Source of the DNA: Polyangiaceae bacterium | Lineage (GTDB): Bacteria; Myxococcota_A; Polyangia; Polyangiales; Polyangiaceae | DNA length: 64,000 bases | Direction of reading: 5' to 3' | NCBI GenBank assembly: GCA_025353725.1 | Contig: JANXOF010000051.1 | Span: 1-64,000, forward strand | Part shown: positions 14,664-25,042 of the stretch, piece by piece | Position numbering within the stretch: the first letter of the stretch is position 1 | How the letters are laid out: the number at the start of each line of letters is the position of its first letter | Made by a program: the position numbers and the translations under genes | The notes under the pieces: model-generated | The model's input: the letters and a program-made list of their open reading frames with translations, nothing else | The model's database searches: none | Told to the model about the DNA's origin: nothing

Positions 14664-16076
14664 TCAGGTTGGTGCGAGGCCGCCCGCGATGGTCATCTTC
14701 GCGACGCGGAACGTGGGAGATGCCGTCGCGGTGCGAAGGTCGAGGTCCGACCCGACGGCGTCAATTCGCTTCCAGAGCTCGTCGACGTTGAGCGAAATGG
14801 TGACCTCGCTCACGGGGTAAGTAAGCTCGCCGTTCTCAATCCAGAAACCGCCGGCGCCGCGAGAGAAGTCCCCCGTGACCGCATTGAACCCGAAGCCCAT
14901 CATCTCGGTGACGTAAAGCCCTCGCTTCGTGCCCCTGATGATGTCAGCGTTCGAATCCGTTCCGGGCGAAAGGATAAAGTTCGACGTGCTGCATGAAACG
15001 CCCGCAGAGCCACCGCGCGCGGCGTTGCCGGTGCTCTCGCGCGAAAGCTTTCGCGCGGAATAGCTGTCACACAGGTAGGTGCGCAGGACGCCTTTATCGA
15101 CCACTATATTTTTGCGACTGGTGAGGCCCTCGCCGTCGTACGGCCGCGAGCCCGGCGCGCGCGGTAAAAGCGGGTCGTCGACAATCGTAACAAGGTCACT
15201 CGCGATACGCGTCCCTTCCCGATCGAGTAGGTAACTTGATTTGCGCCAAATCGAACTCCCCATCACGCAACCCGCGAGCATGCCAAGAATGGCTCGCGCG
15301 GCGTCAGGATCAAACACCACGGGGAATTCGCCCGTCGCCACGGACTTCGCGCCAAGCTTCCGTAGCGTGCGCCGCGCGGCCTCTTCGCCGACGCGTTTCG
15401 GGTCCTCGAGATCGTCCAAAAAGCGTTTCGCGGTCCAGTAGTAGCCGCGTCGCTTCTTGCCTCCCTCGTCTTCGGCCAGTGGCACGACGCTCAGCGACTG
15501 GTACGACCCCTTGTACGCACCACGGAAGCCGCTCGACAGAACGATCGCGGCTCCCCCGGACGTTCGACTGAACGTCGCGCCGTCGCTGTTCGAGATGCGC
15601 GCATCGAACTCGCGCGCGGCACGCTCGGCGACGCGCGCGATAGCGATAGCCTGCGCCGCGTCGACATTGCCTCCCTTGGGATCAAAGAGGTCGAGTTCGG
15701 GCGCGGAGCTCGCATCGATGAGCCCCAAGGGGTCGGCGGGGCCTGCAAAAGGGTCGGGCTGTGAAAGTTCGACCAACTCGAGGGCGTCGGCGACGAAACG
15801 CTGAATTCCAGCTTCAGTGAGGTCGCTTGTCGACGTCGTTGCGACTTGCTTCCCCTTCATGACGCGCAACCCCGCCGAGCGGTGCGCGGCTTCCTCCACT
15901 AGCTCGGGCTTGTCGAGTCGCACGCGCGCCGAGAGCTCGGCCCCCGAACGAAGCATGCATTCGGCGACGGTGATCCCGCCAGCTCCCGACGCGGACGAAG
16001 AACGGGTAGCGAGCGCGATGATGCGATCGCCGAGAGCGAGCAGCTCTTCGAGCTCGGAGTCGACACGGGACGTCAT
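14664..16076 (-). CDS. pmbA: TldE/PmbA-type component of a TldD/TldE metalloprotease
   Basis: The 470-residue protein (ATG at 16076; a GTG at 16094 would add six residues) matches the PmbA/TldE subfamily. It has the N-terminal VRLDKPELVEEAAHRSAGLRVMKG-type segment, the central FPVVFDPDAARAILGML, the DREGTRIASDLVTIVDDPLL region, and SRKNIVVDKGVLRTYLCDSY. It lacks the HExxxH zinc motif, which in this system belongs to TldD. The TldD/TldE heterodimer degrades peptides inside the cell, for example in RiPP maturation. No tldD is present in the window, so the partner must be elsewhere. Confidence 0.9.
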   Translation of the reverse strand: MTSRVDSELEELLALGDRIIALATRSSSASGAGGITVAECMLRSGAELSARVRLDKPELVEEAAHRSAGLRVMKGKQVATTSTSDLTEAGIQRFVADALELVELSQPDPFAGPADPLGLIDASSAPELDLFDPKGGNVDAAQAIAIARVAERAAREFDARISNSDGATFSRTSGGAAIVLSSGFRGAYKGSYQSLSVVPLAEDEGGKKRRGYYWTAKRFLDDLEDPKRVGEEAARRTLRKLGAKSVATGEFPVVFDPDAARAILGMLAGCVMGSSIWRKSSYLLDREGTRIASDLVTIVDDPLLPRAPGSRPYDGEGLTSRKNIVVDKGVLRTYLCDSYSARKLSRESTGNAARGGSAGVSCSTSNFILSPGTDSNADIIRGTKRGLYVTEMMGFGFNAVTGDFSRGAGGFWIENGELTYPVSEVTISLNVDELWKRIDAVGSDLDLRTATASPTFRVAKMTIAGGLAPT

Positions 16077-16121
16077 AGTTCGAGACCGTATCACACCAAA
16101 CGGCGCGTCTTGCCCACACGG

Positions 16122-17207
16122 TTACAGCGTCGCGAGGTACTCCGCAATTTCGCCGAGTGGCAGAACCTTTTGCGGGATGCCCGCGCGCACCGCCGCACCC
16201 GGCATCCCAAAGACCACGGCCGTTTCCTGCGACTCAGCAATCACGAGGCCTCCCGCGTCACGAATCGCACGCGCGCCCTCCACGCCGTCGTCGCCCATCC
16301 CCGTGAGAATCACTCCTACCGCGCGCGCACCGCACGCCGCAGCGACACTCTTGAGCAGTCGATCGGCACTCGGTACGTAGCGATCGTCCGGCAATTTCGG
16401 CGCGCCAACACGGATGCGAAGTTCGACGCCGTGGACATGAACCTCCATGCAGTGGCGACCGGGACACACGAACCCCGTGAGCTTACCCAAGCGATCTCCA
16501 TCCACCGCCTCGGTCGTGCGGACCGCGCCGCGCTTATCGAGACGCTCGGCAAACGTTCGCGTGAACTTGTCCGGCATATGCTGCGCGACGACGATCCCCG
16601 CGGTAGCGGTAAGCGAAATCTTACCGAAGATTTCCAGCAGCGCGGAGGGGCCGCCGGTCGAACTCGCGATCGCAATCACGTGCTTTGGCGCTAGGTAAGG
16701 GCTCGCGGCGCGCATCGATGCGGAGTCGGGAAAAGCCGTTTTGCTCTCGAAGCCGAAGTGGCCACTCACCTGTCGCCGCGACATCGGAGGCGGCGTAAAG
16801 TTCGACCGCAACTGGCGAACGAGAAGCACCTTTTCGAGAATTTGCTCACGAAGGTCCGTCGCATCAGGAGAGATCTGCGCAGCCGGCTTCGCTACGAAGT
16901 CGAGCGCGCCGAGCTCGAGGGCTTTGAAGACGTTCTCCTTTTGGGAATACGAAGATACGACGATGACCGGCGTCGGTTGGCGGGACATCAGAATGCGCAG
17001 GAACGTGAAGCCGTCCATCCGCGGCATCTCGAGATCCAGCGTGATGACGTCTGGCTTGAGTAGGGACGCCAGCCGCAACGCTTCTTCCCCGTCAGCGGCT
17101 TTCCCGACGACCTCGACTTCGGGGTACGTCGCGAACACGTCGGCGATGTTTCGGCGGTTGTACGCCGAGTCATCCACCACAAGCAGGCGTATCGGAGGTT
17201 TAGTCAC
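16122..17207 (-). CDS. cheB: Chemotaxis protein-glutamate methylesterase
   Basis: The 361-residue CheB has a receiver domain with D58 (TLDLEMPRMDG) and a C-terminal methylesterase domain with the nucleophile Ser in ASSTGGPSALLEIF (about 183). Other catalytic-site motifs are H210 in AQHMPDKF and the conserved LTGMGDDGVEG. It removes methyl groups from receptor glutamates when phosphorylated by CheA, giving adaptation together with CheR. It starts at a GTG overlapping the cheR stop by four bases and is the last gene of the operon. No receptor substrate is encoded here. Confidence 0.96.
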   Translation of the reverse strand: MTKPPIRLLVVDDSAYNRRNIADVFATYPEVEVVGKAADGEEALRLASLLKPDVITLDLEMPRMDGFTFLRILMSRQPTPVIVVSSYSQKENVFKALELGALDFVAKPAAQISPDATDLREQILEKVLLVRQLRSNFTPPPMSRRQVSGHFGFESKTAFPDSASMRAASPYLAPKHVIAIASSTGGPSALLEIFGKISLTATAGIVVAQHMPDKFTRTFAERLDKRGAVRTTEAVDGDRLGKLTGFVCPGRHCMEVHVHGVELRIRVGAPKLPDDRYVPSADRLLKSVAAACGARAVGVILTGMGDDGVEGARAIRDAGGLVIAESQETAVVFGMPGAAVRAGIPQKVLPLGEIAEYLATL

Positions 17208-18118
17208 GGTTCGCTTCCGGTCCCCGCGGTCGTTGGTTTGCGGTACACGAGGTCTCCACGCAAGTGTAACAGCTCAAAGGCCGTGGAGACGTTCAACAGC
17301 GACTCGGCGTGACCAAGCAAGAGAATTCCGCCTGGAACGAGGCGCTCGTGAAACATCTCAATCACGCGCTTTCGACTTGGCGCGTCAAAGTAGATCATGA
17401 CGTTGCGGCAAAAAATAAGGTCGCAACGACCTACAAGGTACGTGCGCTCCTTATCAAGTAAGTTCATCTGCGCGAAGTGACACAAAGCTCGAACGGCCGG
17501 GGCAACGCCGTGCGAAACGGCGGTACCGGGATCCCCCTCACGCTCGCCTACGGGTCGAAACCAAAGGCGCTTTGCAGCCTCGTCCGTGACGCGAAACGAG
17601 GTCGGGCCGTAGGCTCCGCGGCGCGCGGAAGCGATGCATTTTTTTGATAGATCTGACCCATAAATACGGACCTCCCATCCGTCAAAAAGGCCGCTTTCAA
17701 GCACGAGCATCGCGATGGTGTAGGTCTCTTCTCCCGTCGAGCACCCCGCGCTCCATATATGCAGGCGCTTTCGTTGGCGGTTGCGTTCGGCCACCAGCGG
17801 GAGCAGTTCATTTTTGAAGGCACGGAGCTGGTAGTCCTCGCGAAAGAAGTAGGTCTCGTGTGTCGTGAGAACCTCCGAGGCCTCTTCCCACTCCTCCGCG
17901 GCGAAGGGACTAAACTTCAACAGGTGATAATAGTCACTGTACGACGTGAGTCCGCGGACAGTGAGGCGTTCACGAAGACGGCGCTCGAGCGAGAGGCGCG
18001 ATTCCGGACCGAACCAGATACCGAGTCGCTCACTGACCAAGTCGCGCAGCAACCGATATTCGTCCGCGCGGAGAACGGCTTCGCCAACTCCGGCGCCGAA
18101 CAAGCGACGCGTCATCAC
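17204..18118 (-). CDS. cheR: Chemotaxis protein methyltransferase
   Basis: The 304-residue protein has the CheR N-terminal helical domain (LLRDLVSERLGIWFGPES) and a SAM-dependent methyltransferase fold with HIWSAGCSTGEETYTIAM. The family TTHETYFFRE and RCDLIFCRNVMIYFD motifs are present. It methylates receptor glutamates. There is no C-terminal pentapeptide-binding extension beyond the usual length. It begins at a GTG four bases into the HEAT gene stop and ends overlapping cheB, so the three are translationally coupled. Confidence 0.96.
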   Translation of the reverse strand: MMTRRLFGAGVGEAVLRADEYRLLRDLVSERLGIWFGPESRLSLERRLRERLTVRGLTSYSDYYHLLKFSPFAAEEWEEASEVLTTHETYFFREDYQLRAFKNELLPLVAERNRQRKRLHIWSAGCSTGEETYTIAMLVLESGLFDGWEVRIYGSDLSKKCIASARRGAYGPTSFRVTDEAAKRLWFRPVGEREGDPGTAVSHGVAPAVRALCHFAQMNLLDKERTYLVGRCDLIFCRNVMIYFDAPSRKRVIEMFHERLVPGGILLLGHAESLLNVSTAFELLHLRGDLVYRKPTTAGTGSEP

Positions 18119-20205
18119 GCGAGAGTCTCGACGTCAGGACGCGACGACAGCGCGGCCATGATAGCCGTTCGCACCTCGGCACTGCGTTCGCGGTCCAAAC
18201 GCGCGCGCAGCATGCCCTCGGCTTCGGCGCCGCCCTCCTGACCAAGGAGCTCGGCGGCATACCGTCGTACCGCTTCGGCCCCGTGTTCGATCGCCCGCGC
18301 AAGCGAAGCCAGCGCGCGTTCGTCCCCCGTGTTGGCGAGCTGGGCAAGCGCAAGTTTGACGACTTCATGGTTGGGGTGTTCGGCGGCTCCCATGAGGGCC
18401 TCGATGCGTGCGTCGACAGGAATAGAGCCGATTACGTCGACGGCGGCGGCGGCGACGGCGGCCTCCTTCGATCGCAGCAGCGGACGTGCGGCGGCGAAAG
18501 CACGCGCGGGGTCGGCGTCGCGGAGGGCGCGGAGCAATGGCGCAAGTCGAATCGGGTCGCGCGTCGCGGCGACAAGCATGGCGAGCTGCTCTGCCCGACC
18601 GAGTCGACCGAGCGCGCGGATAGCCGCGTTTGCGACGACCGGCTCTTCGTCGGCAAGAGAGAACGTGACGCCCAACGCGGCCTCCTCGCCGCCTAGCACC
18701 GCGAGCGCTTCGACGGCCGCGCGGCGTACGGCCGCCTCGCGATGAGAGAGGGCGCTCGCGAGGAACTCGGCATCCTCGGGACGACTCGACCCCGCACGAG
18801 CCAACGCATCGAGGAGAAGCGTCGCCGCCAAAGCGCCGTCGCCGCGAGGGTCAACGCGCGTCGCCGCTAAGCGCGCAGCGTCGACGTTCCGCGCGGCAAT
18901 GGCGAGGAGCGCTCCCTGCGCCGCGCCCGCGACCCTGGGCTCCGAGCTGGTCAAGTGGTGCGCCACAGCCGGAATGTCTGCGGCACCGCCGACGAAGGCA
19001 AGACTCTTCAGCGCGGGAGCTACCACCTCCGCTGAGACGTCTCCGAGCGCCTCACGAACGGCTGCGAGATGCGCAGGCCCTTCTTCGCCTGCCCCTGCAC
19101 CTGTCGGTGAGAGCGTGAGCTGGGGCAACATCGAGAGAGCGGCTCCGCGAAGTGAAGGCACTGCGGTGCGTCCGGCAACGAGGAGAGGTTCGACCGCATC
19201 GCATCCAAAAAGAAGGAGCGCAGCCTCTGCGTGATCGGCGACGGCATCGTCCGCGAGCGCATCGGCAATGAGCGCGACGTCGTCCGGATCACGTATAAGC
19301 CCCAAGGCGAGAATGGCCGCACCGCGTGCGCGCGAGTCAACGTTGCCTGCCTTCGCGAGGGCGCGCAGGCGACCGCGCGCGGCCGGTGAAGCGCGAAGTG
19401 TTTTCGCCGCGACCTCGAGCAAGTCGTCGTCTCCCCAACCGGCCTCGAGACTTTGACCGAGCGCGAACACAGCTTCAAAAGAGTTCGTCGCACTTGAATC
19501 GGCGCATGCTTCAGCCAGCGCCAGCACCGCGCGCGGCGTCGTGTTTCCTCCGGTTGCCGCGATGGCCGGACGCCGAAGCCATGCATCGGCAAACAGAGGC
19601 TCAAGGACGGCCCACGGCAGTCCGTCACCGAGCGCGCGGAGTGACTCAAGCGACGCGAGCCGTGCGGGCGTGGCGCCTGACGCCAGGACCTCCGTGAGCT
19701 TCATCAAAGCGAGTTCGCGCGCCTCGTCTCCAGCGAGATGTGCACGGCCCAATCCTTCGGCCGCGGCCGTGACAACGTTCGAGTCGACGTCGGACAGGGC
19801 GCGCGCAAGGGCTCGCATTCCAGCAAGGGTTGGCGCTCCTGCGAGCACCTCGACCGCGAGCTTGCGACCATCGGCATCGAGGCGCGTGAGGGCGTCACAC
19901 GCACCGGCCACGGCGTCCGGGCCTATCGATACCAACGCTTCGACAGCCGCGTTGCGGAGTCCCGTGTCGTCACGTTCACCGAGCGCTCGCGCCAGCGCGA
20001 AGACGACGGCGGTACGCGGCTCAATCCGCGCCGCTACATTCGCCGCCTCTTTACGAACGCGCCAGTCGGGATCGCCAAGCGCGACGAGGAGCAAGTCGCA
20101 CGATTCTGGTGCCGGTAGCTCGGGGAGGTTCTGCGTCGCGAGACGCCGGGTCTCAGACTCAGAATCGCTCAGCCCGGCAAGCACCCGCGTGAGTCGGGGG
20201 CTCAT
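18115..20205 (-). CDS. HEAT-repeat protein embedded in the Che operon
   Basis: The 696-residue protein consists almost entirely of repeated helical pairs of about 31 residues with the HEAT/PBS-lyase consensus (for example DPDWRVRKEAANVAARI, REAAVRRAAVEALAVLGG, EEPVVANAAIRALGRLG). No enzymatic motif, signal peptide or membrane segment is seen, so it is a cytosolic scaffold. It overlaps cheW upstream and cheR downstream by four bases each, so it is coupled to the Che proteins. In Myxococcus xanthus a HEAT-repeat protein (Cpc7) is known in one Che cluster, where it acts as an output partner; a similar role here is inferred, not shown. Confidence 0.9.
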   Translation of the reverse strand: MSPRLTRVLAGLSDSESETRRLATQNLPELPAPESCDLLLVALGDPDWRVRKEAANVAARIEPRTAVVFALARALGERDDTGLRNAAVEALVSIGPDAVAGACDALTRLDADGRKLAVEVLAGAPTLAGMRALARALSDVDSNVVTAAAEGLGRAHLAGDEARELALMKLTEVLASGATPARLASLESLRALGDGLPWAVLEPLFADAWLRRPAIAATGGNTTPRAVLALAEACADSSATNSFEAVFALGQSLEAGWGDDDLLEVAAKTLRASPAARGRLRALAKAGNVDSRARGAAILALGLIRDPDDVALIADALADDAVADHAEAALLLFGCDAVEPLLVAGRTAVPSLRGAALSMLPQLTLSPTGAGAGEEGPAHLAAVREALGDVSAEVVAPALKSLAFVGGAADIPAVAHHLTSSEPRVAGAAQGALLAIAARNVDAARLAATRVDPRGDGALAATLLLDALARAGSSRPEDAEFLASALSHREAAVRRAAVEALAVLGGEEAALGVTFSLADEEPVVANAAIRALGRLGRAEQLAMLVAATRDPIRLAPLLRALRDADPARAFAAARPLLRSKEAAVAAAAVDVIGSIPVDARIEALMGAAEHPNHEVVKLALAQLANTGDERALASLARAIEHGAEAVRRYAAELLGQEGGAEAEGMLRARLDRERSAEVRTAIMAALSSRPDVETLA

Positions 20206-20828
20206 GAAACTCCGAGCGGCGACGTGGGCAGTTTAGGAATTCCACCCGCAACGGCGTCTGCAAGGGCTCCGAAAAGGCGCACATCGAGCACGAAGACGAG
20301 GCCCCCAGGACCTGCGTACGGCGCCACCCCTTCTATTCCTCGCACCTCGTCCCCGACGCCGAGGGACGGAGCCGGCTGAATCTCAGCACCGCCGGTGCCG
20401 AAGACCTCGGTCACCGAATCGACCACCAAGGCAACGTAGCGAGCCGCGCTCGGCGGTGGCGCGGAGTCACGTGTGAGAAGCTTGCTGCGCGGCGTCACGT
20501 CGACAACAAGCCATTTGTTTTTACGTGACGGAGCGAACGGAGGAAGCGCAAATCGCTCGCGAAGGTCGATGACGGGAACGATCTCACCGCGAATTGACGC
20601 CACCCCGCGAACCGCCTTCGGGGCACGAGGCAATTCAACGACCTCGAGCGGGTTTACGATCTCCCGAACCGTTTCGATGCGGACTGCATAAGCCACTTCG
20701 CCCACCATGAAGCCGACAAGGTTCTTCGTGGGGTCGTGGCGTTGCCTAGGCATGATGAATCCGCTTCGTACATAGGGTGAAAGGTGTGAGCGAACTACGC
20801 GGCGCACGAAACGAGCTAGCGAGTTCAC
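20202..20828 (-). CDS. cheW: CheW-like coupling protein
   Basis: The 208-residue protein has a CheW domain (LVGFMVGEVAYAVRIETVREIV to the end) with RGVASIRGEIVPVIDLRERF and, near the C-terminus, GVAPYAGPGGLVFVLDVRLF. CheW links receptors to CheA. It starts at a GTG overlapping the previous cheW stop; an ATG at 20753 would start 25 residues later, close to the family N-terminus, so the extra segment may not be translated or may be a lineage extension. It is the second of two tandem cheW genes that are only moderately alike and could bind different receptors or CheA surfaces. Confidence 0.93.
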   Translation of the reverse strand: MNSLARFVRRVVRSHLSPYVRSGFIMPRQRHDPTKNLVGFMVGEVAYAVRIETVREIVNPLEVVELPRAPKAVRGVASIRGEIVPVIDLRERFALPPFAPSRKNKWLVVDVTPRSKLLTRDSAPPPSAARYVALVVDSVTEVFGTGGAEIQPAPSLGVGDEVRGIEGVAPYAGPGGLVFVLDVRLFGALADAVAGGIPKLPTSPLGVS

Positions 20829-21313
20829 ACTGCAAAAAGAGGTGCGAGGTCGAGAAGTAGAAGGACCGCGCCTCCCGGTGGCCTTCCAAGGCCGACGACG
20901 TGCGGCGGTTGTTCCGTACCGAGAACATGCGGGGGCTCAATCTCGCTCTGGGCGAGACGATAGACCTGAAGAACCTCGTCGACGAGCAACCCGACGAGCT
21001 CGCCACCTGCGTCGATCAGAAGGATCCGACTTTTCTTGTCCATCGTAAAGCTGCGCGTCAGTCGAAAGCGCCGCTTCAAGTCGACGACGGTAACGAGTCG
21101 CCCACGCACGCTCATCACGCCGACGACCTCGGCGTCCGCGCGCGGGACTTCCGTAATGGGCAGCGGCTTCAAGATCTCTACGACATTTCCGATGAGAATC
21201 GCGTAGGCCTCGGTCCCAAGCATGAAGGCGAGGTACTCCGCTCGCTTTCCGAGTTCGTCGGCCCGCTGAAGCGCCGAGCGACCTTCGCCGCGGCGCGCGA
21301 GGAGCGCCTTCAT
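20825..21313 (-). CDS. cheW: CheW-like coupling protein (first copy)
   Basis: The 162-residue CheW domain protein begins MKALLARRGEGRSALQ. It contains LAFMLGTEAYAILIGNVVEI, the VVGVMSVRGRLVTVVDLKRRF core, and the LVGLLVDEVLQVYRL segment. Length and motifs are normal for CheW. Its ATG overlaps the cheA stop by four bases (ATGA) and its stop overlaps the next cheW. Having two CheW proteins beside one CheA suggests two receptor inputs or a hexagonal-array and a soluble use, but the receptors are not in the window. Confidence 0.94.
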   Translation of the reverse strand: MKALLARRGEGRSALQRADELGKRAEYLAFMLGTEAYAILIGNVVEILKPLPITEVPRADAEVVGVMSVRGRLVTVVDLKRRFRLTRSFTMDKKSRILLIDAGGELVGLLVDEVLQVYRLAQSEIEPPHVLGTEQPPHVVGLGRPPGGAVLLLLDLAPLFAV

Positions 21314-23754
21314 GGAGGCCCGCCCTCACCGAGCGACCGCATGGACGTAAGCTGCCGAAGTCCGTCATGCTGGCCTGCGCTACGCCCGTCGGAGGAACTC
21401 GCAAGGACCTCGCCAATCAACGCAGCGGCGTCGAGGACCAAACCGACCCGCTGATCGCCGAGCTCGGTCGCTCCCGCGAGACCACGTGTTTTCTTGAGCG
21501 ATTTGCCAAGCGCTTTGATCACGATGTCCTGCTGACCTACCAGCTTATCGACGATGAACCCGACGCGGCGGTCTCCAACCGCGGCTACGATGCAGTAGCT
21601 TTTAGCTTTGCGCCCGGGCCGCACCTCCGGCGGTTTGGGGGTGCGCGCGGATTCGTTGATCCACACGCCTGGACGCCAACCCTCGAGCTGAAACAGCTTC
21701 GCGAGTCGCACGATCGGAAGCGTCGCGCCTCGCTGGGTCATCACCTCACGGCCTTCGAATGTTTTGATCATCGAATCGTCGAAGACGATGGCCTCTTCCA
21801 CACTCGCGAGCGGCATGCAAAACATGCGACCCGCGACTTCGAGCATCAGCACACTGATGATCGCGAGCGTAATCGGCAGCGTGATCGTCATCTTCGTTCC
21901 GATGCCGACCTCGCTCGAGATATCCACAACCCCGCCGAGTTTGCTGATGTTCGTCTTGACGATGTCCATGCCGACGCCGCGGCCAGAAAGGGCTGTCACG
22001 TCGTCACGCGTGGTGAAACCCGGCTGAAATACGAGCGCTAGGATCTCCTTCACGCTCATCTCACGTGCCTCAGACTCGTGAATAAGACCGCGCCGAAGCG
22101 CCGCCGCGACGATGACTTCCGGCGACATCCCCTTGCCGTCGTCTTCGATCTCGAGAACGACGTGATTTCCCTTTTGAAACGCATTGAGCGCGATCGTGCC
22201 GACAGGCGGCTTTCCGACGCGCATGCGCGTGTCCTTATCCTCAATGCCATGATCAATCGCGTTGCGGATCATGTGCATCAACGGGTCGGAGAGCTCTTCG
22301 ACGATGAGTTTGTCGATCTCCGTTTCGCCGCCGGTCACGACGAGGTTCACCTGCTTACCGTGCTCGCGAGAGATCTGCCTTACGATGCGCGCCAACTTGT
22401 CGAAGACTTGGCCCAACGGGACCATGCGCACTTCCAGAATGCCGTTCTGCATCTGCGCAAGATGGCGGTCGAACGACCGGTGAAGCCGATGGAGCTCCGG
22501 CGCGATCTCTTTGAGGCCCGGGTCAAGCCTGACGCGCTCCGACAGGCGCGCGACGACGCCGCGGACAATCGCGAGTTCGCCTACGATGTTCATCAAATGA
22601 TCGAGCTTGCGAATGTCGACGCGAACGGTTTGCGTCACGCTCCGTAGAGTAAGTTCGCGGCTCCCGGCATTCGCGGTGGACGCGCCGCCGATGTGGCTCC
22701 CGGCAAGGCCCTGATCGACCCCCACGCGCGCTCGCTCGGGTGGATACGTTCCTGCTTGTGGCGACACCGAGAGCGCGGCGGCAGGAGGCAGCGACGTTCG
22801 CGTCGTGCCCGCAAACGCGTCGAGATCGTTCGCGTCGATGGGGGCTGTCGTGCCCGTGATTGGCCCGCCGCTCAGGGACGCCCCCATCACGGGGAGCGAG
22901 AACCGGCCGCGCGCGGCCTCGTCGTTGAGCGGCGGCGGAGACATGCTGGCGACCGGCGTGGGTGCGCCATCGCGACGACGTACCTCCTCGACCGTGATGT
23001 TAGGGCCTGCGACCGCACCGCTCAGGACGGCGAGGCTTTCGCGACTCGCGACGAGGATTTCGAGTTCGACGCTTTCCGCGTCCCCGCCTTCGCCCGTCGG
23101 CAGAAACGTAATGATTTCACCATGTGGGCGGGTCTTCGACTTGAGGTCGTCGAGCGCCGAGTCAATGGTCGCAAGACGAAACTGGACGCGCAGACGGTAG
23201 AGGAGGAGGCCTGCCTGCAGGTTCGTCCGAAGCCGATGCTCCTCGTATTCGGTAAGAACACCGAGGAGCCCCGGATCGAGCTCGTACTGCGCTACGACGC
23301 TGCCGCCACCGCCGCCTCGTTGCTGGGCGACTTGGCCGAGCGAGGCGAGCAGCGCCTTCACTTCTTGCGCGGGCTCGGCCGCATCACCTTTTGCGGCGGC
23401 GAGGATGCGGCCGTACAGCTCGACGGACTCGAAGAGGAGGTCTAGGACCTGCGAGGTCAGCTCAATGCGGCCAAGGCGGAGGTCGTCAAGGAGGTTCTCG
23501 AGCTCGTGGGAGAGCCCGCTCATCATCGCCGCCCCAAAGAGACCGGAAAGTCCTTTGAGCGTGTGAACCGCCCGGAACACGTCATTCACGAGTTCGGCAT
23601 CACTGCCCCCTCGCCGTGACATGTCGTCCAGCGCAAGGAGGTCCCGGCTCAGACCATCGACGATTTCCTGAGCCTCCGAGAAGAACTCCTCGCGTGCCTT
23701 GTCCCCTGCGCTCTCCCCGCGGCTTCCGCCTCCACCACCGGAGTGCTCAGGCAC
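21310..23754 (-). CDS. cheA: Chemotaxis sensor histidine kinase
   Basis: The 814-residue CheA has an Hpt domain with H64 in VHTLKGLSGLFGA, a linker with polyglycine, and a dimerisation helix pair (HLMNIVGELAIVRG). The ATPase domain carries the N box MHMIRNAIDHGIED and G1 DDGKGMSP, and the C-terminal CheW-like domain has FIVDKLVGQQDIVIKAL. It autophosphorylates H64 and transfers phosphate to CheY and CheB. There is no attached receiver domain, so this is a standard rather than hybrid CheA. It starts at a GTG eight bases before the cheY stop and overlaps the next gene, forming the core of the operon. Confidence 0.97.
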   Translation of the reverse strand: MPEHSGGGGGSRGESAGDKAREEFFSEAQEIVDGLSRDLLALDDMSRRGGSDAELVNDVFRAVHTLKGLSGLFGAAMMSGLSHELENLLDDLRLGRIELTSQVLDLLFESVELYGRILAAAKGDAAEPAQEVKALLASLGQVAQQRGGGGGSVVAQYELDPGLLGVLTEYEEHRLRTNLQAGLLLYRLRVQFRLATIDSALDDLKSKTRPHGEIITFLPTGEGGDAESVELEILVASRESLAVLSGAVAGPNITVEEVRRRDGAPTPVASMSPPPLNDEAARGRFSLPVMGASLSGGPITGTTAPIDANDLDAFAGTTRTSLPPAAALSVSPQAGTYPPERARVGVDQGLAGSHIGGASTANAGSRELTLRSVTQTVRVDIRKLDHLMNIVGELAIVRGVVARLSERVRLDPGLKEIAPELHRLHRSFDRHLAQMQNGILEVRMVPLGQVFDKLARIVRQISREHGKQVNLVVTGGETEIDKLIVEELSDPLMHMIRNAIDHGIEDKDTRMRVGKPPVGTIALNAFQKGNHVVLEIEDDGKGMSPEVIVAAALRRGLIHESEAREMSVKEILALVFQPGFTTRDDVTALSGRGVGMDIVKTNISKLGGVVDISSEVGIGTKMTITLPITLAIISVLMLEVAGRMFCMPLASVEEAIVFDDSMIKTFEGREVMTQRGATLPIVRLAKLFQLEGWRPGVWINESARTPKPPEVRPGRKAKSYCIVAAVGDRRVGFIVDKLVGQQDIVIKALGKSLKKTRGLAGATELGDQRVGLVLDAAALIGEVLASSSDGRSAGQHDGLRQLTSMRSLGEGGPP

Positions 23755-24142
23755 GACCGGCCCCTAGCAGGCGTGCGCACGTCTCGCGCATACTCTCCGG
23801 CGAAAACGGCTTCGGTACGTACGCATCGGCCCCGACTTTTCGGCCCCGTTCGACGTCGCGCTCCGTCGCTTGCGTCGACATGATGATGAGCGGAGTCGTT
23901 CGGTACTGTTCTGACTTCCGAATGAAGTGGATAAGCTCGAGCCCGTTGACGTCGGGCATATTGATGTCGGTGATGACGAGGTCGTAGGGCGTTCGCGGCA
24001 AGAGCCGCATGGCGTCGAAACCGCCTTGAGCCTCCGAAACCTCCAACGAGCCCATCATCCCTGCAGACTTGGGGTCTTCGAGGATCGCGCGGAGGTACGA
24101 GCGCGTCGACGCGGAGTCTTCCACCACGAGGATACGTCGCAC
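23747..24142 (-). CDS. cheY: Single-domain response regulator
   Basis: The 131-residue receiver domain starts at a GTG and reads MRRILVVEDSAST. It has the acidic pair E8/D9, phosphoacceptor D59 in VITDINMPDVNGLEL and a Lys in YVPKPFS. No output domain is present. It is the first gene of the chemosensory operon and should be phosphorylated by the CheA encoded next. Its target is not a flagellar motor, as no flagellar genes are near; the HEAT protein is a candidate partner by linkage only. Confidence 0.95.
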   Translation of the reverse strand: MRRILVVEDSASTRSYLRAILEDPKSAGMMGSLEVSEAQGGFDAMRLLPRTPYDLVITDINMPDVNGLELIHFIRKSEQYRTTPLIIMSTQATERDVERGRKVGADAYVPKPFSPESMRETCARLLGAGRA

Positions 24143-24214: not shown

Positions 24215-25042
24215 ATGGCTCTTCCTGCTCTCCCTTTGCCTGCATCTCTTCCTGCTTCCCTACCTGCCTCCCTACCCGCTTCCCTGCCTGCTCCCCAGAC
24301 TGCGGCAGCCCTAGTGATTGGCAACGAGTTGCTCTCCGGTAAGGTAGCGGAGGCCAACGTCCACGGGCTCGCACGGGCCCTCCGAGGGCTTGGCGTCGAG
24401 TTCCGCCGCGTCGTCGTCATTCTCGATGAAGTCGACGAGATTGCGCGTGAGGTCGAAAGCCTGGCGAAAGCGCACGACTGGCTTTTCACGTCAGGAGGGG
24501 TGGGACCCACGCACGACGACGTCACTGTCGTGGGGGTAGCGAAGGCGTTCGGCGTCGAGGCAGTCATAGACCCCACCCTCGCGAAAATGCTCCGGGATCA
24601 CTACAAAGACCGATGTACAGACGGCCATCTGCGGATGGCGCTGGTACCCAAGGGCGCACAGCTCGAGTCGACGGCTGACGTCCGATGGCCCACCCTTCGC
24701 TTTCGGAATGTGTGGCTGATGCCCGGCGTCCCCGAAATTTTTCGGATGAAGCTCCCCGTCGTCATCGAGAAAATCGAGCACACAAGCAGAAGCGCGCGCT
24801 ACGTCTCACGCTCCGTTTTCACGAAAATGGACGAAGGCGACCTCAAGCCGCTTCTTGACGCTGTGGTGGCTCGTTTTGCAGATGTCGGCGTCGGCTCGTA
24901 CCCGAAATGGCAGGACCCTACCTATCGCACGAAATTAACGTTTGATGGCCGCGACGGTGCCCGCGTCACGGAGGCGCACGACGCGTTCGTAGCGCTCCTC
25001 CCGCCGGGTGAACCGCAGGCGCTCGAAGAGTCCCAAGACTGA
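24215..25042 (+). CDS. CinA-type MoCF-binding domain protein
   Basis: The 275-residue protein starts at an ATG and has a repetitive N-terminal leader (four PASL units followed by PAPQTA). The MoCF_biosynth fold follows: AAALVIGNELLSGKVAEAN, SGGVGPTHDDVT and the C-terminal WLMPGVPEIFRMKL. It matches the N-terminal domain of CinA and of eukaryotic-type FAD synthase, but lacks the CinA C-terminal nicotinamide-nucleotide deamidase domain. A nucleotide pyrophosphatase role is possible. It is divergent from the Che operon and stands alone; the following gap 25043-25292 shows nothing recognisable. Confidence 0.85.
   Translation: MALPALPLPASLPASLPASLPASLPAPQTAAALVIGNELLSGKVAEANVHGLARALRGLGVEFRRVVVILDEVDEIAREVESLAKAHDWLFTSGGVGPTHDDVTVVGVAKAFGVEAVIDPTLAKMLRDHYKDRCTDGHLRMALVPKGAQLESTADVRWPTLRFRNVWLMPGVPEIFRMKLPVVIEKIEHTSRSARYVSRSVFTKMDEGDLKPLLDAVVARFADVGVGSYPKWQDPTYRTKLTFDGRDGARVTEAHDAFVALLPPGEPQALEESQD
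24239..24290 (+). repeat. Imperfect 12-bp minisatellite coding PASL
   Basis: Imperfect copies of a CTTCCTGCTTCC-like 12-bp unit encode PASL four times at the start of the CinA-domain protein. The repeats are pyrimidine-rich on the forward strand and could change copy number without a frameshift. Confidence 0.7.

Follow-up and report, generated by a model that had tools for sequence, protein, structure and literature searches.

A receptor-less Che8-type chemosensory operon of a Polyangiaceae bacterium and its most likely receptor, encoded elsewhere in the genome

Introduction

Chemosensory genes for phosphotransfer, coupling and adaptation stand together in one operon of this Polyangiaceae bacterium, and none of the seven encodes a receptor. 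The locus thus raises the questions of where the pathway takes its input, to what it sends its output, and what role is played by the HEAT-repeat protein that is encoded in its midst. The window, i.e., the whole stretch of DNA analyzed (64,000 nucleotides), lies on contig C36 of an assembly of 6.6 Mb that consists of 98 contigs and is 97.6% complete. From comparisons with related genomes we consider it quite probable that the operon specifies a complete and probably non-flagellar pathway of the Che8 type, with a receptor gene elsewhere in the genome that is most likely the one termed MCP8 here.

Organization of the Operon

On the minus strand, from position 24142 to 16122, the gene order is cheY-cheA-cheW1-cheW2-HEAT-cheR-cheB:

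23747..24142, minus strand: cheY, first gene of the operon, single-domain response regulator of 131 aa (open reading frame; Pfam Response_reg, 87 bits)
21310..23754, minus strand: cheA, 814 aa, with Hpt, dimerization, ATPase and CheW-like domains (open reading frame, Pfam, relatives across the order)
20825..21313, minus strand: cheW1, 162 aa (open reading frame; Pfam CheW, 111 bits)
20202..20828, minus strand: cheW2, 208 aa (open reading frame; Pfam CheW, 90 bits)
18115..20205, minus strand: HEAT-repeat alpha-solenoid protein, 696 aa (open reading frame; Pfam HEAT_2, 139 bits)
17204..18118, minus strand: cheR, receptor methyltransferase, 304 aa (open reading frame; Pfam CheR, 166.7 bits)
16122..17207, minus strand: cheB, response regulator and methylesterase, last gene of the operon, 361 aa (open reading frame, Pfam)

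All seven reading frames are open and Pfam agrees on each of them, which bears out the order and common direction given in the original prediction and rules out a frameshift that breaks the operon. Pfam gave no match to a receiver domain in CheA, and the operon cheR is the one CheR match of the genome. The prediction had also stated that the window lacks a receptor gene; a search of C36 with the MCPsignal profile gave zero matches, so that a receptor just outside the window is ruled out as well. Downstream of the operon stands tldE (PmbA/TldD; 14664-16094), which is kept there in several relatives, and a CinA-like gene (24215-25042) is divergent upstream, a flank that is likewise common to several relatives. 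One in-frame TGA each is present in the CheA matches G007:C312, G044:C160, G060:C12 and G038:C204.

As predicted, all six junctions overlap. The overlap is 8 nt for cheY/cheA and 4 nt for each of the remaining five, which read ATGA, GTGA, ATGA, GTGA and GTGA from cheA/cheW1 to cheR/cheB. The start assigned to cheW2 may be off by about 25 codons, and use of the internal ATG at codon 26 would abolish the overlap between cheW1 and cheW2. To place these junctions among those of relatives we surveyed 33 loci (window included, one genome represented by two pieces, loci of the fusion and loss lineages excluded). The seven-gene order is complete in 25 of these and partial in eight, each of the latter being cut by a contig end. 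The script picks the start closest to a 4-nt overlap and is therefore biased towards overlap; with this bias, and with the window counted, exact 4-nt overlaps were found at cheW2/HEAT in 26/30, at cheA/cheW1 in 20/31, at HEAT/cheR in 19/29 and at cheR/cheB in 17/29 loci, and were scarce at cheY/cheA (7/29) and cheW1/cheW2 (7/31). With exact 4-nt overlaps frequent at four junctions and infrequent at the other two, overlap at every junction is, by this survey, the upper end of a tendency and no conserved hallmark. Coupled translation and a fixed stoichiometry, both part of the original prediction, are what one may infer from the overlaps alone, two of the six being mostly unconserved.

A Candidate Receptor Encoded on Another Contig

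The genome holds four MCPsignal matches in three genes, on contigs C9, C13 and C97. One of these is the candidate receptor:

C13, 40443-42023: MCP8, orphan receptor of 526 aa (MCPsignal match)

MCP8 contains four acceptor motifs, three of them at conserved sites, and the receptors on C9 and C97 have zero matches to a relaxed form of the motif. The receptor on C9, which we take to be PilJ-like, clusters with a CheA frame of 1904 aa. The C97 cluster (L013:2547-11205, on G000:C97) encodes a long protein with a receiver (871 aa), a receiver-DUF4388 protein, a CheW, a receptor and a CheA. The receptor, of 259 aa, has neither an acceptor motif nor a predicted membrane helix; the CheA has two Hpt stretches but, at the Pfam threshold applied, no CheW domain.

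Among 95 genomes of the order, MCP8 is matched in 81 (E 1e-40), mostly at 62-78% identity, CheA in 82 (E 1e-80) and the HEAT protein in 66 (E 1e-20). Each matching genome has a single MCP8, except for G029, where a second match is weak. Diverged forms occur in G068, G053 and G055 (48-55% identity) and in G019 and G087 (33-34%), and in G061 the end of the contig leaves only a fragment. When the operon was scored by HEAT only, both partners were present in 64 genomes, the operon alone in 2, MCP8 alone in 15 and neither in 14. These counts are blurred by diverged or contig-broken HEAT genes, and CheA was therefore added to the scoring, giving 80 genomes with both, 2 with the operon alone, 1 with MCP8 alone and 12 with neither, where the presence lists were read by eye and the 80 include four jointly diverged pairs. 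Under a strict cut that drops these pairs the counts are 76, 2, 1 and 16. The genomes are related, so neither the presence counts nor the site counts given below are independent events. The discordant genomes (G085 and G088 with the operon only, G033 with MCP8 only) are all drafts, in 230 to 1380 contigs, and this fragmentation is a possible, though not a certain, cause of the missing partner. The 12 genomes with neither are spread over six families; other matches to receptors and to CheR persist in some of them (10 and 5 in G005, 7 and 5 in G080, 4 and 6 in G035).

Could the operon be fed by several receptors, with MCP8 as just one of them beside the PilJ-like receptor of C9 and the mini receptor of C97? 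Three receptor-like genes are present in this genome, and modules of Myxococcus xanthus are described as sharing receptors (PMC3945109), but we hold this to be improbable: the receptors on C9 and C97 cluster with a CheA and CheW of their own and are devoid of the acceptor motif, and in 21 of the 95 genomes MCP8 is the sole MCPsignal match. Exactly one CheR match is found in 10 of these 21 genomes; it adjoins or is fused to HEAT in nine, and in the tenth, G077, the two are on contigs that are not joined. Genomes with a single receptor match and a single CheR match, both belonging to this system, come close to the simplest chemosensory set-up that one could wish for.

MCP8 lies megabases from the operon in three complete Sorangium cellulosum genomes. 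No che gene is shared beside MCP8 in 34 loci, and its neighbors are local to subgroups (such as genes resembling trpS or TatC, identified by eye in the sequences). Across 188 sampled genomes of the phylum, MCP8 was matched in 33 (E 1e-70), only one of which is outside the class of the window's genome, so that other carriers of Che8 must use another receptor.

Taken together, MCP8 is the most likely partner receptor of the operon. That the input comes from an unlinked receptor, as had been proposed, is now very likely, with MCP8 on C13 as one strong candidate, and a membrane-anchored, unlinked partner would explain the apparent receptor gap of the operon.

Acceptor Sites of MCP8 and the Presence of CheR

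Acceptor sites were scored with the motif [ASTG]xx[EQ][EQ]xx[ASTG] in an alignment of 93 MCP8 rows from 92 genomes, and a site was kept when 50% or more of the CheR-positive rows had the motif there, a rule that retained four sites. The 65 CheR-positive rows represent 64 genomes (rows G015 and DeltaMAG336R are one genome); in these, the operon of which includes CheR, four sites are present in 49, three in 14 and two in one. In the six receptors from genomes with an operon lacking CheR, five have one site and one has none. The 22 rows in which the CheR status of the operon was left unclassified have four sites (15 rows), three (six rows) or two (one row). An earlier choice of sites by eye had given 58 CheR-positive rows with four sites and seven with three, against 0 to 1 in the CheR-less ones, and was replaced by the rule because it had followed a look at the data; the rule takes site 202 out and site 413 in, and the latter is kept in G070, G076 and G053.

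Four of the CheR-less genomes (G070, G076, G019, and G087) have no CheR match anywhere, and the other two (G068 and G053) have 9 and 8 CheR matches elsewhere despite an operon without cheR. On a CheA tree, in which the long branches of G053, G055 and G068 are flagged, the six cases represent four losses, and sites were lost along with CheR in 4/4; a sign test over the four tree pairs gives p = 0.125, the lowest value possible. Four of the six CheR-less receptors are strongly diverged (34 to 58% to the consensus), so that overall decay could have erased their sites. The pair G070 and G076 (lineage g14) is a cleaner case at 76 and 79%, and six status-unclassified rows at only 66-69% still keep three or four sites. 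By its motifs MCP8 is a predicted methyl-accepting receptor, and these motifs are kept where CheR is present. We also considered a tie between the loss of CheR and loss of the C-terminal tail of MCP8; the tail is replaced in g14, but that of G019 and G087 (lineage g3) looks kept, and G057 has a different tail and a CheR, and the link was rejected.

These observations also bear on the possibility that the pathway is free of receptors and that CheW2 or the HEAT protein serves as its input. The same gene order occurs without an MCP8 match at the locus in a Labilithrix assembly and in Sorangium cellulosum, the compared loci of the Polyangia type being without one, and cheW2 stands at the position that mcp7 has in che7 of M. 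xanthus, as judged from locus tags (PMC3945109). A pathway of this kind would leave CheR and CheB without a substrate, however, and the co-occurrence of MCP8 with the operon as well as the loss of acceptor sites with CheR make it very improbable.

Predicted Topology and Possible Origin of MCP8

In a pass over whole frames, two hydrophobic helices at most about 16 residues apart were predicted in 39 of 46 MCP8 frames, with one helix above threshold in six and one frame cut by a contig end; this pass may take in untranslated upstream sequence. A narrow pass over 93 rows, three of them truncated, found a helix pair in 48, a single helix in 17 and no helix in 25, but covers the 130 residues before the coiled coil and misses hairpins behind long linkers. 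The helices are followed by a long coiled coil of variable length. None of the 93 rows ends in an aromatic-x-x-aromatic tail such as the NWETF-like tethering pentapeptide. As the two transmembrane helices are close to each other and leave hardly any loop outside, and the coiled coil behind them is long and cytoplasmic by this reading, MCP8 probably reports an internal or membrane state and no outside ligand.

In several loci of the Nitrospirota a receptor and a CheW directly precede HEAT-cheR-cheB. In a tree of 51 signaling domains, 15 MCP8 sequences and eight receptors of Nitrospirota loci of the HEAT type are separated from 28 others (SH-aLRT 97), the latter drawn both from the order and from named genomes of Sorangium and Myxococcales; three of the 32 comparison loci (L030, L230, and L244) gave no row. 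This is most simply read as a departure of the receptor gene from the operon within the Polyangia. The tree is suggestive on this point, as its panel has no receptors from unrelated operons that match MCP8 in length class.

The HEAT Protein

The AlphaFold2 model of the HEAT protein is all helical, with a mean pLDDT of 90.1. More than half of the residues that are invariant among nine sequences fall in the N-terminal 150 residues, where the conserved repeats span residues 45-150 approximately. A Foldseek search with the model returned generic large solenoids, and the top of a sequence search consisted mainly of artificial alphaRep proteins; neither gave a functional clue.

The genomic context points in two directions. 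HEAT and cheR are adjacent in the 25 complete loci of the junction survey, and in G003 one uninterrupted frame of 712 aa, at the corresponding position of the operon, encodes both the HEAT repeats and CheR. In the loss lineages, the HEAT gene tracks cheY at the locus in 4/4 and cheR in 3/4: both cheY and HEAT are missing from the loci of G070/G076, G019/G087, and G068, of which that of G068 is left with cheA and cheW1 alone, and in G076 and G019 cheY, HEAT and cheR are jointly gone and cheB is kept. A strict tie between HEAT and CheR is weakened by the locus of G053, where cheY and HEAT are kept without cheR or cheB beside them. In g14 no close CheY is found genome-wide (best match 55 bits). 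In the g3 genomes a CheY-like gene is present away from the locus (76 and 83 bits), which renders the loss of CheY uncertain there. As for the retained cheB (L114 in G076, L116 in G019), it stands in genomes without a CheR match, and this CheB may only deamidate or be a phosphate sink.

Because the HEAT protein is fused to CheR in one genome, yet disappears along with CheY, it may serve CheR, CheY or both. It could be an output effector, i.e., bind CheY~P and pass the signal on without a special tie to CheR. The 4/4 tracking of cheY fits with this, as does the binding of CheY7 by the HEAT protein Cpc7 of M. xanthus Che7 (PMC11514114); similarly, a haloarchaeal HEAT_PBS protein encoded in a che region is described as interacting with CheD and with a CheF protein, and switching depends on it. 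The only fusion, however, is to CheR and none is to CheY, it is cheR that HEAT adjoins in the complete loci, and the g3 genomes may have retained a CheY. We regard an effector role as a tenable reading, though one that falls somewhat short of an even chance.

In the pathway that we prefer, the solenoid would be an adaptor that holds CheR and/or CheY~P. MCP8 together with CheW1 and CheW2 would control CheA; CheA would phosphorylate CheY, as the output, and CheB; and CheR and CheB would adjust MCP8 through some four acceptor sites. The sequences show the operon and its domains, the one CheR of this genome, the co-occurrence of the unlinked partners, the joint loss of acceptor sites and the single fusion of HEAT to CheR; which proteins bind each other, which way control runs, what the signal is and on what CheY~P acts are inferred. 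A bolder version is rather doubtful in our view, namely that the Polyangia have a stripped-down pathway with a single dedicated, distant receptor, which left an ancestral operon that in the Nitrospirota still includes it, and with a HEAT protein that bridges CheY~P to CheR. If this were true, the output of the pathway would determine how far the receptor is methylated, and adaptation would follow a loop that differs from those of E. coli and Bacillus. The HEAT-CheR fusion and the joint losses point to a concrete function of a helical repeat protein in chemosensory pathways, one that can be put to the test.

Output of the Pathway

The original prediction considered a flagellar motor an improbable target, and this is supported by a search of the window's whole genome, which gave no match to the FliG domain (FliG_C). 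FliG was found in 35 of the 95 genomes of the order, where flagellar genes may be commoner than expected. Since FliG is present in 28 of the 82 genomes with the system, a motor as the output might be contemplated, but it is absent from the other 54 as well as from the window's genome, and a flagellar output seems scarcely credible. A non-flagellar output is likely in this organism because of the lack of FliG.

In M. xanthus, CheA8 takes part in the phosphorylation of an orphan regulator that governs transcription of groEL; apart from this, no function of Che8 had been identified as of 2022 (PMC9040617). Together with the absence of FliG here and in most genomes with the system, this makes output to a regulator, and to no motor, plausible by analogy.

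Comparison With Known Systems

By gene order, which for M. xanthus is taken from locus tags, the operon of the window is of the Che8 type of M. xanthus. Both have the order Y-A-W-W-x-R-B in a cluster without a receptor gene. Che8 of M. xanthus (MXAN_4751-4759) reads, by locus tag, Y-A-W-W-two untabulated genes-R-B-Y, with the untabulated genes between CheW8a and CheR8 (PMC3945109), and shares with the window two CheWs, a CheA without a listed receiver, a single-domain CheY, a CheR without TPR and a CheB (PMC3945109). It differs in its second cheY after cheB, which is absent from the window locus, where tldE stands instead. In loci from other families of the order (L104, L106, L152, L156-L158, and L160-L162) a second cheY lies about 1 kb past cheB, or less in L157. 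Conservation of che8 extends to Anaeromyxobacter and Geobacter (PMC2330069).

The resemblance to Che7 of M. xanthus is more limited. This cluster (MXAN_6959-6965) reads, by locus tag, Y-A-W-receptor-one untabulated gene-R-B (PMC3945109). The HEAT protein Cpc7 belongs with Che7 (PMC9040617; PMC11514114), and the system of the window has a HEAT protein too (Pfam, AlphaFold2). In contrast, Che7 has one CheW and a cytoplasmic receptor, Mcp7, encoded in the cluster, whereas C36 is without an MCPsignal match; the window has its second CheW at the place of Mcp7, and the putative receptor is unlinked and membrane-anchored. As for a Pil-Chp system, the PilJ-type receptor and very large CheA that would mark it occupy the C9 cluster and not the operon.

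Two further parallels concern the HEAT protein. CheR-TPR fusions such as FrzF and WspC likewise join a helical repeat to CheR, as in the HEAT-CheR fusion of G003. However, their TPR is mostly C-terminal, the repeat in G003 is HEAT and N-terminal, and elsewhere in the present set HEAT is a separate gene. OE2401F (HEAT_PBS) of Halobacterium salinarum resembles the HEAT protein of the window in its repeats and in being encoded in a chemotaxis region, and is described as binding Che proteins. It differs in being archaeal and working towards the archaeal flagellum, with CheD and a CheF protein as partners.

We found no report of a Che8 receptor or a HEAT-CheR fusion in the literature searched, which does not establish their absence from print. 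The receptor-less cluster itself is already known, as Che8 of Corallococcus is stated to have no associated receptor (PMC6194562). What is new here is a conserved, unlinked candidate receptor for an operon of this type, and naming one makes the Che8-type pathway testable.
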